Under the pieces are notes generated by a model that was not told the origin of the DNA, ran no database searches, and worked only from the letters and a program-made list of their open reading frames with translations. Shown one piece after another: positions 14,160 through 62,320 of a stretch of 64,000 bases of DNA (position 1 is the stretch's first letter; every line of letters starts with the position of its first letter). Where the stretch lies: positions 62,001 through 126,000 of the IMG/VR virus record IMGVR_UViG_3300022514_000030; one strand, 5' to 3'. Made by a program: the position numbers and the translations under genes. Origin of the DNA: a virus.

Positions 14160-17100
14160 TCACTGCTTCTTTATAGCAATGCCGTAGAAGCTGTTAGCGC
14201 TTGAGGATATGAAGCTGTACGGCGCGTTAATCGCGAAGAACTTATAAACCTCCTCATCAGGCTGACCTTTGTTTACAACCAGTTCGTCAATTGGCGCAAG
14301 GCTGGCGCCGTCAACCGCAACGACACCGTCCAATGTGCCGCGGTAACCATCGAACGGATGCACAACGCTTATGCAGCTGACGTACACCTTGCCTGTGAAG
14401 CTGGATGGATTGAAGCCAATCTTGGTCATAAACTCCTCGGGCGTATGGAAGGCTGCCCTGTGCTGCTGGTAATAAGCCCCGCCGCGGGTGCGGTACATGC
14501 TGATATCGGTCACGCCGGTGGCAGTAGCTGGACCAAAGCTGCTCGGATAGTTTATCTTTGTCACTACTCCGGTCTGTGGATCTCTTACTATCTGGTTGAT
14601 AACATATCCGGTTGGCGACGGCGATTCGTTCTTGAGATTAGTAATGCTGCCGTCATCGATAAATTCCGTGACAGCCACATCTTGCACATAAGCAAGGAGC
14701 TTGTACTTGGTGGTATCTTTTGCTGCAGAAGACAAAGCGCGTTTATCCCATCCTAAAAAGGCGCCCCAGTAATTTGTCTTTCTAGTTGCACTAACCTCGG
14801 TATAGCGGTATATCTTCCAGCCAACAATGTCGTCCCGCTGCGGCAGTGTAACGGAAATCTTAACGCTGTAGTTAGTTCTTTTCTCTGGCGTGACAGTTGA
14901 TTCAAACGTGTCTACATACACCATTTCGCTCGGGGGCGATTCGCCACTGTCAGTTACGAAGGTGATCATGTAGCAGTAATAAGTTGGATTACTGGAAGAG
15001 AAATTACCACTGCCAGGCATAAGCTGTGCGGAGACGATTGTTTTTTCTGTCGGGGGATTTATCCTGTTTGCCGGCACAGTCGCAGAGGTTGTGGTAAGAG
15101 CAAAATTACCAAACGTATCATTGATCCCGCCTTCATACGGCTTAATCCTTCCAATATAGGCAAAGCCAATAATGTAGTTCATGTAATCTACTCCCGGCTC
15201 ACCCATGAGAACCATTACCAGCCTGTCATTGGTCACACTCATCCAGTAACGTATAGCCACTTCCGTCATAGAAGACGGCAAGTTGACAGGCTTTAAATAA
15301 CCACCCCTGCTGATCTGAATCGTGTTTCCACTAGTGCCACCGGAAATGTCATAAACAACAGGCACTTCTTCCCAGTCGCGCAGCCAGGACAGTTTGCTCC
15401 ACGGCGACACGTGGGCGCCTTCGCTTACCAACATACCAGACGAATCATACACATTAGCAGCCGGTTTTTCAGCTACCGCATCCCATTTGTCAAACATCCT
15501 TACCTCGATGTAATGGTGGTTGGCGCCTGTTGGTTGGAACACGCCGTTCGCATCTCTGTAATATGTGGTACAGGTCTCCGGATTGATAATCTTGCTGGAG
15601 CGGTAGAACTCAACATACATCGTGAGCGATGTCATGTTGAGCCTTTCGTCGCTGTAGAGGTTCTGCAGCTTCTGCTCGTCTGTCAGCTCTACTGGCGTTG
15701 TGGTCGTTTTGAGCACAAGCCTGTCTTTTATCGCAGCAATAGCCTCTTCAATACCGTTTGTGTAGTAGCTGTAGTCTATTGTCGCCTGGTCCAAAACGTC
15801 CACCGGCTGGTTAAACACAACTGTACCGTCCTCATAGATTACCTTATACTCACTTGTATCGACGGCTTGACCGTTGATGTAAACAGTCAGCGTATGCTCC
15901 GCGGATATTGGCTTGTTTGCAGTCTTGAACAGCTGGTTGTTAACCGGCACCAGCTCTTCATTCAGGATATCCTCAACAGATGCATAGTACGTGTAGTCTG
16001 CGGTTATATAATCCATCCGCGGGCAGAAGACAAACGATGCTGTAATCACGGCAGACGTATCCTGGATGGTATTGAATACTATATTACCGTTTGTGGTATC
16101 AAGCGTGTATTCGCCCTGCGACACCGTCTGCCCGTTCCTCTTAACAACAAGGTTCTGCGACAGAACGTTTTTAACACCGGTCGAATAGACGATGTAGTTG
16201 GTGGTGGTCAGCCGGACATCCTGCAATGACACAACCGCTTCATAGTAGTAGTAATCAACGGTTATGGCATATGGCGTGCCGTAGTAGGAGTAGTCAACGG
16301 TTATGACAGCAGATGGGTCCTGAGCAGTGTTAAACACTATGCGGTTGTTGTTTGTGTCAACGGTGTATTCCGATGCATCTACAGGCTGTGAATTGCGGTA
16401 CACCACTACAGTGCCGGGTACTATCGGACTCCCAGCAACGGTGTATATCTTGTTGTCCTGTGTCGAAGTAACCTCCTGTGTAACGCTTATAACCCTGCGC
16501 TGAATGTTGTTAAATGTGATCGTGCCGTTTATCCTGTCAACTGTGTACTCGGTTGGCGCCACAACATTACCATCCCTGTACACAACAATCGCATCTTCGA
16601 ACGTGATAGGCTTGTGGGATACCGAATACACTCTGTAGTCAGTGGTACCGGGCGCTTCGCCCAATACGAAGGATACATTGCTCTGCACGGTGTCAAACGT
16701 AATTGTGCCGTTTGCAAGGCCTACGGCATACTCTGATGGTGAAACATAAGTGCCGTTCCTGTACACTTTCAAAAGGTCAGCCGAGACAAGGGCGCCGTTC
16801 TGTGTACTGAAGTTGACACCGTCCGTCGACTTCAAAACCTCGCCCGTTACCGCTGTGGCATTTGAGTAGCATGTATAGTCCGCAGTTATCACGTAGGGCT
16901 CGGACAGGTACTCGTAGCTTGCGGTTATGGCCGCATTCTCGTCCTGATAGAGACGGAACGTTACCTTGCCGTTCTTGGTCTCAAGCACGTACTCCACCGG
17001 GTCAACTTCCGCACCGTTCCTGAACACTTTAAGCGTGCTCGCCACGATCTCCGTATGACCGAGGTCGTACGTCCTATAATCGGTCGTCTGAAGGGAGACG

Positions 17101-17450
17101 TTCTCTACCGCCGCCCTCATCCTCTGCGGCTCTTTAAAGAGTATCGTGCCGTTTTGGTAGTCAACAGTGTATTCCGTCGAGCTGACAAGGCTGCCGTTGC
17201 GGAATACACGCACCACTCTGTTAGGCACGATGGGCTTTCTTGAAGTGTTGTAAAGCAGGTAGTTCTTGGATTCGAGCACTTCCTGCAGCACACGCCTTAT
17301 TGACCTGTACTTCTGCGGAGATGGATATATCAGTTCCCAGTTCTTGCCCGGTATAAGCTCGCCTGCCGCATCTTTGAAGACCGTACAGGCGTTTCTTGCA
17401 ATAGTCTTCAGTATCTCGTTGGACGATGTAAAACCCTCAATCCATGCCAT
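14160..17450 (-). CDS. Giant beta-repeat tail adhesin
   Basis: This 1,096-aa protein has eight to nine copies, between residues about 70 and 560, of a unit like VFRNGSLVSSTEYTVDYQNG followed by TILF and alternating with ITADYTY-type strands. The unit resembles modules seen elsewhere in this virion. The C-terminal half holds other beta domains and a fibronectin-like segment near APVSG-type loops. Length, repeats and position fit a receptor-binding fibre or tail spike. No Shine-Dalgarno sequence is visible before the ATG at 17450: the upstream bases belong to the end of the IsrB element, so that insertion may have displaced the original ribosome site. Confidence 0.6.
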   Translation of the reverse strand: MAWIEGFTSSNEILKTIARNACTVFKDAAGELIPGKNWELIYPSPQKYRSIRRVLQEVLESKNYLLYNTSRKPIVPNRVVRVFRNGSLVSSTEYTVDYQNGTILFKEPQRMRAAVENVSLQTTDYRTYDLGHTEIVASTLKVFRNGAEVDPVEYVLETKNGKVTFRLYQDENAAITASYEYLSEPYVITADYTCYSNATAVTGEVLKSTDGVNFSTQNGALVSADLLKVYRNGTYVSPSEYAVGLANGTITFDTVQSNVSFVLGEAPGTTDYRVYSVSHKPITFEDAIVVYRDGNVVAPTEYTVDRINGTITFNNIQRRVISVTQEVTSTQDNKIYTVAGSPIVPGTVVVYRNSQPVDASEYTVDTNNNRIVFNTAQDPSAVITVDYSYYGTPYAITVDYYYYEAVVSLQDVRLTTTNYIVYSTGVKNVLSQNLVVKRNGQTVSQGEYTLDTTNGNIVFNTIQDTSAVITASFVFCPRMDYITADYTYYASVEDILNEELVPVNNQLFKTANKPISAEHTLTVYINGQAVDTSEYKVIYEDGTVVFNQPVDVLDQATIDYSYYTNGIEEAIAAIKDRLVLKTTTTPVELTDEQKLQNLYSDERLNMTSLTMYVEFYRSSKIINPETCTTYYRDANGVFQPTGANHHYIEVRMFDKWDAVAEKPAANVYDSSGMLVSEGAHVSPWSKLSWLRDWEEVPVVYDISGGTSGNTIQISRGGYLKPVNLPSSMTEVAIRYWMSVTNDRLVMVLMGEPGVDYMNYIIGFAYIGRIKPYEGGINDTFGNFALTTTSATVPANRINPPTEKTIVSAQLMPGSGNFSSSNPTYYCYMITFVTDSGESPPSEMVYVDTFESTVTPEKRTNYSVKISVTLPQRDDIVGWKIYRYTEVSATRKTNYWGAFLGWDKRALSSAAKDTTKYKLLAYVQDVAVTEFIDDGSITNLKNESPSPTGYVINQIVRDPQTGVVTKINYPSSFGPATATGVTDISMYRTRGGAYYQQHRAAFHTPEEFMTKIGFNPSSFTGKVYVSCISVVHPFDGYRGTLDGVVAVDGASLAPIDELVVNKGQPDEEVYKFFAINAPYSFISSSANSFYGIAIKKQ

Positions 17451-17504
17451 ATCAAAACTGCGGCCTGGGGACCCGCCGCCTTTAGGGGGCGGGAGGAAAG
17501 ACCG

Positions 17505-18533
17505 CTAAACTACCTCCTTTCCAGAAATATACTGAGACCGCCAGGAAACAGAGGTTAATACCCGGCAATCCTCGGGTTTCACAGTTCGTGTGACCCTCTT
17601 CCCTGTTTTGATGTCGTGCAGGCTCAGTCGACCGTTTAAGTGGCCGCCAACGTAGCAGAGGCCCCACCGCAGGTGCTTCACCAGTGTGCCGCGCTTGAGC
17701 CCCAGGCTACGAGTACCGCCGTAAGGCCTCCTGATTCCACCCTCCTCCGGCTCCAGGCGGTGCAGCTGGCGGCGGTGGAACCGCAATGGAACCAGGTAGT
17801 AGAGCCCGATGTGGTCGGGGTGTTCGGCGCCCGACACGGAGGCCGCCAACACCCAGGCGTCCACGCAGTGGGAGAAGAAACTCTTCTTTCTTTTGTCGCC
17901 GTTCTTCTTGAGGCCGAACGCTTCCCGGAGCTGTTTCGTCTCGTGACCCTGCCTCAGAACGGGCTCGAACCCCAGCTCTCCCAGCTTCCGGTAGAAGCAT
18001 TCCTTCCCCACCTGGACAGGGGAAAAGCTCCTGTTCCAGCGGCGGCTCCCCTTCTTCATCTCTGCCTTGACGTCCTCCACCACAATGTGGGAGATGGGAA
18101 GTATCCTGAGTAAGTCCCGGATTATCCTCAGCTTCGCCTCCCACCTCGCCCGGGTTGACGGGGGAAGGGTGTTACGCCCACGCAACCTCTCGGGCTTCGT
18201 AACCCGGCGACGGGTCTTGCGGTAACGCCTGGCGCGGCGCATCCGCCTCCTCTGCTCCACGGCCTTTTTCACGTGGGTTACGGCTTCCGACATGATGTTC
18301 AGAACGGTATGCTTTGTGCCCACTACGGAAGTACCCTCGAACTTGCTGCCCGGGTCCTGGCCAAGTGCAAGGATTTGATTTGCAGGCTCCACTTCGTAGG
18401 TGAGTTGGATGTAGAATATGCCCAGCTTGCTCCGCTTTGGAAGCGCTTTACCCCGCTTCAGGAACAACCTCGCCTTGGCCGGATGGCAGGGCATGAGGGG
18501 CCTTCCACCGGCGTCGACGACGGGAATGCGCAT
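17505..18533 (-). CDS. isrB: IsrB-like RNA-guided RuvC nuclease
   Basis: The protein has 342 aa, with AAAAGGAGG before the ATG. The N-terminal PLMP motif (GGRPLMPCHP, residues 10-18) is the hallmark of IscB/IsrB. An arginine-rich bridge helix follows at residues 95-111. RuvC catalytic positions are Asp60 (GQDPGSK), Glu153 (VVEDVK) and His222/Asp225 (FSHCVDAW). Only about 65 residues separate RuvC II from RuvC III, so no HNH domain fits. That and the size (IsrB proteins are about 350 aa; IscB about 400-500) favour IsrB, known to nick DNA guided by an omegaRNA. The RNA candidate lies directly upstream. All catalytic residues are present, so it may be active. Confidence 0.85.
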   Translation of the reverse strand: MRIPVVDAGGRPLMPCHPAKARLFLKRGKALPKRSKLGIFYIQLTYEVEPANQILALGQDPGSKFEGTSVVGTKHTVLNIMSEAVTHVKKAVEQRRRMRRARRYRKTRRRVTKPERLRGRNTLPPSTRARWEAKLRIIRDLLRILPISHIVVEDVKAEMKKGSRRWNRSFSPVQVGKECFYRKLGELGFEPVLRQGHETKQLREAFGLKKNGDKRKKSFFSHCVDAWVLAASVSGAEHPDHIGLYYLVPLRFHRRQLHRLEPEEGGIRRPYGGTRSLGLKRGTLVKHLRWGLCYVGGHLNGRLSLHDIKTGKRVTRTVKPEDCRVLTSVSWRSQYISGKEVV

Positions 18534-18540
18534 CTCAATT

Positions 18541-18838
18541 TCCTCCTTTTCCCGCTTGTACGGGAGAGCTATTCGCTCGGCTCCGGGTCAAAGCCCGGGT
18601 GAAATTCCCCTTCGGCAATGCCCGACAGGCATAGCGCGGTTTTAAACCACGCGCGGCATTCAGCGGTTCTGCCGGAAGGGACCGGACTAGGGGGGCATCC
18701 GGGCTTCCTTCGTAGCCCACCGGGCGTAGGGCTAACTGAGGAAGGAAGTCCTTCCGTCTTGTTGCCCTGAGCCTAGTGCACGGGTTACCCTCGGGCCCGC
18801 CAACCCAAGCCCTACGCCTGAAGGCGTAGGGTCCGTGA
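18541..18838 (-). ncRNA. omegaRNA (HEARO-like) of the IsrB element
   Basis: About 300 nt immediately upstream of isrB are GC-rich and full of inverted pairs. The 5' part has CCCTACGCC/GGCGTAGGG, followed by a second CCCTACGCCC segment, and nearer the gene CCCGGGCTTTG/ACCCGG and CTCTCCCGTACAAGCGGGA. Size and position match the omegaRNA of IscB/IsrB elements. By family knowledge the guide would lie at its 5' end, reading into the end of the 18839-19282 gene. A 107-codon ORF across it is taken to be spurious. Confidence 0.75.
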
Positions 18839-19282
18839 CTAAGTAGTCCCTCCTGCAATGGCGAAATTCATGTCTATCCACGCCACCTTGGATGTGCCGC
18901 TGGCGTTGTTGAACACAAACCTGAGCACATCGCCAGCCTTAAGCTTGACAGCACCAAAGCTCTTAACCTGTGCCACCTCTTTGCAGTATATCGTCTCACA
19001 GACAACTTCACCGTTGATGTAGAACGACCAGTAATCAACGTCCATGTATCCCGTACAGCCTACTTCTATGGACAGCAGCTCGGCATCCTGCGGCAGCGTG
19101 TATTCAATGGGGTACTCTCCAGGTGCAGCAGGCATTTCTACTCTAAACCCTTTAATGAAAGGCTTTTGGTATGTTGCAAACAGATGTGGAGGCAGGACAA
19201 CCTGAACAGGGGCCCCTATGCCGTCTATCTTTCTTACCCTGTCTATAAGCCCACCAACAGAGTAGTTTACATTAAAGCTCAA
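18839..19282 (-). CDS. Small beta-rich virion protein
   Basis: It has 147 aa from a TTG at 19282, after GGAGGGAGG. The sequence is beta-strand-rich with aromatic-flanked segments (YMDVDYWSFYINGE; LKAGDVLRFVFNNASG), like a small jelly roll or head/tail decoration domain. Its start overlaps the stop of the Ig-domain gene by 4 nt, so the two are coupled. The stop lies at the junction with the IsrB element, and its end supplies the expected guide sequence of that element. Confidence 0.5.
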   Translation of the reverse strand: MSFNVNYSVGGLIDRVRKIDGIGAPVQVVLPPHLFATYQKPFIKGFRVEMPAAPGEYPIEYTLPQDAELLSIEVGCTGYMDVDYWSFYINGEVVCETIYCKEVAQVKSFGAVKLKAGDVLRFVFNNASGTSKVAWIDMNFAIAGGTT

Positions 19283-61957: not shown

Positions 61958-62320
61958 GTGGGCTACTATTCTGAAGTGATCATCGTAATTGCGAAGGATG
62001 CGCATGAGGCCTTCCTCAATGCGCTTGCAGCTCGAGCGTTTGAGCTGCAGTGTATCGGTGAATGCAGCCCGGCAGAACTGCTTGCGGCTGCAGAAAAGGA
62101 GGAACATCCTGATGCGGTTGTCTACCACTGGCCGTTCGTCAAGTGGTACGATAACTATGACCCTGACGTGATGGCCATAAGGGATGCACTCAAAGAGCTT
62201 GACTCTGACTGCTACAAGTTCTACCGCCTTGGTGAGGAGTACGGCGACTTTGAGGAAGATGGTAACTATCTTGGCGATCCACAGTTCTATATGGTGCACA
62301 GGCTTGAGATGCTGTCGTAA
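61958..62320 (+). CDS. Unknown protein
   Basis: The product has 120 aa from a GTG at 61958, after AGGAGGTGGTCA. It opens with a beta-alpha unit (GYYSEVIIVIAKDAHEAFLN) and ends in an acidic half (YRLGEEYGDFEEDGNYLGDP). It may be a small alpha/beta fold. It follows the previous gene by 16 nt, so it is in the same operon. Confidence 0.45.
   Translation: MGYYSEVIIVIAKDAHEAFLNALAARAFELQCIGECSPAELLAAAEKEEHPDAVVYHWPFVKWYDNYDPDVMAIRDALKELDSDCYKFYRLGEEYGDFEEDGNYLGDPQFYMVHRLEMLS

Follow-up and report, generated by a model that had tools for sequence, protein, structure and literature searches.

Introduction

The closest described system to the locus reported here is DtIsrB of Desulfovirgula thermocuniculi (PDB 8dmb; PMC9581776), in which R323 reads base 3 and Q326 reads base 4 of the target-adjacent motif (TAM). 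With Arg at the latter residue (Q326R), it acts on TTGG/ATGG; ATGG targets have also been used in assays of DsIsrB and BbIsrB (PMC9581776). An IsrB-like element is known to have moved into the genome of cyanophage Mic1 at an ATGA motif (PMC11237433), the TnpB of IS200/IS605 acts as a gene drive that spreads its element through plasmid copies (PMC11870625), and TnpA is present in few HEARO elements (PMC9755519). Here we describe an IsrB element in 64,000 nucleotides (nt) of viral DNA (positions 62,001 to 126,000 of IMG/VR virus record IMGVR_UViG_3300022514_000030; hereafter, the window), for which a matched occupied and empty allele bears on the natural role of IsrB as a nickase. We suggest, with a probability of roughly 0.7, that it is a non-autonomous element whose IsrB serves as an RNA-guided nicking homing factor and that is tolerated at a start codon.

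The window protein and DtIsrB share a size of ~340-350 amino acids (aa), the PLMP motif, the bridge helix, a RuvC domain without HNH, a C-terminal TAM-interacting domain and an adjacent ~300-nt omegaRNA with the guide at its 5' end. They differ in that Gln rather than Arg reads TAM base 4 in DtIsrB (TTGA/NTGA, versus a genomic ATGG here), and in that the window IsrB resides in a phage virion operon. Whereas the Mic1 insertion came from the host and disrupted a TnpB-like phage gene, the window element sits at a start codon and interrupts neither gene. As in the plasmid TnpB drive, the replicon is multi-copy and an RNA-guided nuclease is aimed at the site that lacks the element; however, plasmid TnpB cleaves its target, whereas the window IsrB is expected just to nick and TnpA was not found in the record. 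The locus is an added member of the already known IsrB family. What is new here is that, across relatives, the TAM ATG usually opens a downstream gene, and that the 3' end of the element bears a Shine-Dalgarno motif and a hairpin that would place this motif close to the ATG.

An occupied and an empty allele of the same site

17451..18839, (-) strand: whole IsrB element, 1389 bp, with limits from the empty site in contig L004
18840..18859, (-) strand: guide ATTGCAGGAGGGACTACTTA, directly 5' of the omegaRNA and drawn from the end of the virion gene upstream
17447..17450, (-) strand: TAM ATGG, from the empty site; it doubles as start codon of the next virion gene downstream
18810..18831, (-) strand: subterminal hairpin at the guide-side end, CCCTACGCCTTCAGGCGTAGGG
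17460..17505, (-) strand: two-part subterminal hairpin at the opposite end, with the same architecture in relatives

L004 is a viral contig without the element; searches with each of the two flanking genes led to this same contig, the first 5.9 kb of which are 97% identical to the window. On the (-) strand, both share the left flank ...GCAGGAGGGACTACTTA up to the junction, where L004 continues with ATGGCATGG. Marking junctions by a slash, the empty allele reads ...GGGACTACTTA/ATGGCATGG and the window reads ...GGGACTACTTA/GTCACGG...TTTTGAT/ATGGCATGG; both ends of the element are unambiguous in this comparison, and a target duplication is absent. The element is a precise insertion between two phage virion genes, directly before ATGG. 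Precise insertion, lack of target duplication and subterminal hairpins are traits of IS200/IS605, and the element, with a G+C content of 61% against 49-52% in its flanks, belongs to this type and encodes IsrB and an omegaRNA. A search of the 172,670-base record for Y1 transposase (PF01797, TnpA) gave no match, and the element is therefore at most a non-autonomous derivative. Only one copy of it is present in this virus.

Because the omegaRNA match to the HEARO model begins exactly at the boundary defined by L004, the adjacent 18840-18859 is the guide, at a length of 20 nt adopted from DtIsrB. In the empty allele, a protospacer identical to the guide is followed by ATGG. In the occupied allele, GTCA stands where the TAM would be, and thus the element's own copy should escape targeting. 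Elsewhere in the virus record, the guide has no further match with up to three mismatches. As with a homing endonuclease gene, the element is inserted in the allele that it is predicted to target, and its presence removes the TAM.

The original prediction, made from the sequence alone, had placed the element at 17460-18860 inside the virion operon, without a tnpA gene and with the last part of the 18839-19282 gene as the source of its guide, and had proposed comparison with a related phage lacking the element. That comparison, with L004, fixed the ends, the guide and the TAM: the source of the guide held, as did the location, since the flanking genes are virion genes by PHROGs, and the absence of tnpA in the record agrees as well. 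The element is where it had been placed, but its guide-side limit had been set ~20 nt too far out.

A side observation concerns the flanks. L004 and the window agree at ~97% upstream of the insertion; in the comparison of L004 5944-8606 with window 14160-17450, identity declines to 80-90% or less once ~100 bp past the insertion, which might mark a recombination break, the limit of co-conversion or simply a fast-evolving virion protein.

The IsrB protein and its omegaRNA

17505..18533, (-) strand: isrB, intact open reading frame (ORF) of 342 aa, RuvC without HNH
18599..18839, (-) strand: omegaRNA scaffold, HEARO RF02033, model positions 1-211 of 211; the leader extends to the isrB start at 18533

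It is virtually certain that the protein is an IsrB. The Pfam RRXRR/PLMP domain PF14239 is found at its N-terminus (E 1e-36; PLMP at residues 12-15), and in alignments of 29-31 relatives the RuvC residues D60, E153, H222 and D225 are invariant, as are R99, R102, R103 and R105 of the Arg-rich bridge helix. The top PDB match by sequence is DtIsrB (8dmb, E 6e-51; 1e-79 in a profile search, over profile positions 2-330), with which the protein is colinear over its full length at ~34% identity. An AlphaFold2 model (pLDDT 85.5) aligned to 8dmb with TM-scores of 0.78/0.81, exceeding those to IscBs. By sequence, alignment, fold and tree, no HNH domain lies between the RuvC segments, contrary to what defines an IscB; as expected of a protein lacking HNH, the NCBIfam IscB model matches below its cut-off and over the N-terminal half only. 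In the tree, the protein groups with HNH-less IsrBs, apart from two IscB outgroup proteins (support 100/100).

The 5' leader is more stably folded than shuffled sequences (z -3.8, 0/100), and across six aligned leaders 27 of the 44 predicted pairs show at least one compensatory change. In an E-value search of the short stretch, HEARO RF02033 gave a full-length match (57.2 bits, E 1.8e-10). A default Rfam scan of the whole window returned no match, because 57.2 bits lie under the gathering score of 83 bits; we therefore label it a HEARO-like omegaRNA rather than a curated Rfam member. The nearest relatives score 88.5 (L025), 76.2 (L014), 73 (L061), 63.3 (L011) and 56.5 bits (L012), the sister element L025 being the sole one of these above the cut-off.

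These results bear out the earlier reading of the locus as a protein with PLMP motif, bridge helix and RuvC residues but no HNH, behind a structured leader taken as omegaRNA, and two of the checks proposed for it, structural alignment to IsrB and a covariance search, agree, the latter under the Rfam cut-off. Two outcomes had been named as speaking against it, lack of a covariance match and loss of HNH by deletion at this site: the match is significant, and deletion is contradicted by tree and alignment.

Proposed function and alternatives

We propose the following scenario. The guide would be transcribed together with the virion operon, and in copies that lack the element the IsrB-omegaRNA complex would nick the non-target strand at a distance of ~8-11 nt from the TAM, a position taken from DtIsrB. 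During multi-copy replication or co-infection, the nick could trigger recombination with an occupied copy, which would restore or spread the element; transposition to new sites would need an external TnpA. We attribute tolerance of the insertion to the coincidence of TAM and start codon, which leaves both coding sequences whole, and probably also to the Shine-Dalgarno motif and hairpin at the element's 3' end, which may serve the downstream start codon. Nickase activity and helper-transposase dependence are inferred, and a role in homing or retention is likely, if slightly less so than the explanation as a whole. Since guide, target and TAM can be read directly from the occupied and empty pair, this idea is directly testable.

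Several points weigh against this scenario. L004 is a single empty allele, which could reflect secondary excision instead of the ancestral state, and when other empty sites were sought with two right flanks, the matches were the elements themselves only. The omegaRNA match does not reach the Rfam gathering cut-off. Moreover, the virus record may be incomplete, and tnpA could lie beyond its 172,670 bases.

It would be tempting to regard the element as an immobile passenger, which arrived once via a helper transposase and whose IsrB is active but irrelevant, with no homing or retention. The missing tnpA and the single copy would fit, as would the finding that only 7 out of 50 viral records with IsrB relatives have a Y1 transposase above cut-off. 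However, a bystander in a compact virion operon would be expected to decay, whereas the ORF, the catalytic residues, the omegaRNA and both ends are all intact, and the guide perfectly matches the empty allele with a fitting TAM. We consider this explanation unlikely, albeit the strongest of the rivals. Less probable still is that the element is a phage weapon or immunity system that nicks the virion junction of element-free co-infecting competitors and so reduces their yield, conversion being a by-product. The guide does target a virion-gene junction of a 97% identical relative, but it matches nothing other than alleles of this one site, nicking by itself makes a weak weapon, and homing accounts for the same facts.

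A domesticated RNA-guided regulator that binds without nicking, like TnpB-derived repressors, would be compatible with the location within an operon and the stable guide. However, RuvC inactivation, the hallmark of nuclease-dead TldR-like regulators, is not present, and without a second guide match (up to three mismatches) in the virus record the genome offers no target for regulation, which makes the idea very improbable. Finally, origin from an IscB by local deletion of the HNH domain, for which only the relatedness of IscB and IsrB would speak, is ruled out for practical purposes by colinearity with DtIsrB throughout, by a fold nearer IsrB than IscB and by grouping with HNH-less proteins apart from the IscB outgroups.

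Start codons and a possible replacement ribosome site

18848..18854, (-) strand: native Shine-Dalgarno AGGAGGG of the downstream gene, 8 nt before the ATG in the empty allele
17512..17520, (-) strand: Shine-Dalgarno AAAGGAGGT at the end of isrB, which may stand in as ribosome site of the downstream gene

For the ORF and Shine-Dalgarno comparisons, we used a curated set of 40 elements, obtained from the automatic calls by discarding eight rows on visual inspection and every row that lacked a TAM. In 34 out of the 40, the TAM ATG/GTG starts an ORF no shorter than 60 aa, compared with 33% of control sites. With the TAM as start codon, insertions therefore fall between genes and part the native Shine-Dalgarno from its start codon; in the window, the native AGGAGGG now lies within the guide, cut off from its start codon by the element. 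Just 5' of the conserved terminal hairpin, GGAGG/AGGAG occurs in 31 out of 40 elements versus 7% of control windows, and the motif is kept in 18 out of 26 clusters. In the relatives, the median distance from motif to ATG is 52 nt along the linear sequence and 8 nt with the folded hairpin removed, although the effective spacing is weak on its own: when the motif is placed at random within this stretch, the median is 11 nt (quartiles 8-15).

A comparable arrangement is found in phage T4, where genes 25 and 38 have split ribosome sites and a hairpin shortens the spacing from 27 to 11 nt and from 22 to 5 nt, respectively (PMC3014915). The present locus shares with them a hairpin between Shine-Dalgarno and AUG that would shorten the effective spacing; unlike in T4, the putative split site would arrive with a mobile element and serve the displaced gene. 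Across the family, we give about even odds that the element's 3' end, with its Shine-Dalgarno and hairpin, replaces the ribosome site lost by insertion. Two features of the window copy tell against such a function: its motif is 63 nt from the ATG and ~17 nt outside the hairpin, compared with the usual 7-10, and its local RNA is not folded more stably than shuffled sequences (z 0.31). Because of the ~17-nt spacing, we are less sure of a replacement site in this copy than in the family.

We also considered whether the motif is a by-product of Trp-Arg codons; against this, among 25 elements in which it does not arise from such codons, 16 retain it. The Arg332 codon is AGG in 36 out of 78 cases, compared with 12.6% for other Arg codons. 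The motif may be conserved for translation rather than for a DNA-level role of the element end. More broadly, the chances seem evenly balanced that IsrB elements are built for tolerance, with a TAM that is a start codon, a split ribosome site that is re-created and a nickase that spreads the element. If true, restored translation of the displaced gene would explain how such elements survive in packed phage operons.

Residue 316 and the TAM

DtIsrB R323 and Q326 align with R313 and R316 of the window protein (8dmb chain numbering is offset by 150, after which N265, R323 and Q326 land on the correct letters). Arg316 thus stands at the place of DtIsrB Gln326 and predicts G at TAM base 4, and the empty site reads ATGG. 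An automatic end caller gave ends for 60 out of 107 elements, with the window and a few others miscalled. Among relatives with a called 3' end and TAM, Arg or Lys at 316 goes with G in 5 out of 6 and Gln with A in 38 out of 41 (NTGG versus NTGA; p 2e-4 as called, 8e-6 with the window corrected). The lone Arg exception is the window itself, called as TTGA three bases inside the true end, where the empty site gives ATGG. Some Arg/Lys cases adjoin Gln relatives in the tree (for example, L065 beside L062), and the association is therefore not a single inherited event. Residue 316 (326 in DtIsrB) is thereby tied to TAM choice across natural elements.

Genomic context and related elements

18839..19282, (-) strand: upstream virion gene, PHROG 5955 virion structural protein, E 2e-32; its stop codon TAG takes the element's first base
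14160..17450, (-) strand: downstream virion gene, 1096 aa with intact coding sequence, PHROG 11431 virion structural protein, E 1e-40

The neighbours identified by PHROGs are virion structural proteins, a major head protein, a head maturation protease and a portal. The nearest kin of the window IsrB are encoded by a viral contig, a WOR-3 bacterium, Methanocalculus and archaea of the ANME-1 type. With an alignment as query, IsrB relatives were found at 78 loci of viral contigs, although IMG/VR contigs may include host DNA; a single-sequence query of viral contigs found IscB loci only.

Outside the window, near 130,600 of the same record (G000:C1; L143, 541-1920), a 459-aa ORF has weak Cas12f1-like TNB and HTH_OrfB_IS605 matches, both below cut-off, and the virus may thus also carry a divergent or decayed TnpB. 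A 327-kb record, IMGVR_UViG_3300023213_000432, has several IsrB copies (L119, L123, L126 and L128) with similar ends at different ATGA sites, and a Y1 transposase elsewhere in the contig. At L006 (2995-4092) and in Microcystis phages LMM01 and MaMV-DC, genes annotated as "hypothetical" or RRXRR are IsrB-like (33-37% identical); at L006 a weak HEARO match lies upstream. In a Dolichospermum plasmid (L010, 2915-3001), an IsrB-like gene without a HEARO match starts 9 nt past the 3' end of a group II intron, a second copy of which intron end lies upstream. Lastly, a 167-kb viral contig carries tandem IscB genes of 445 and 450 aa (L003, 5173-8564).
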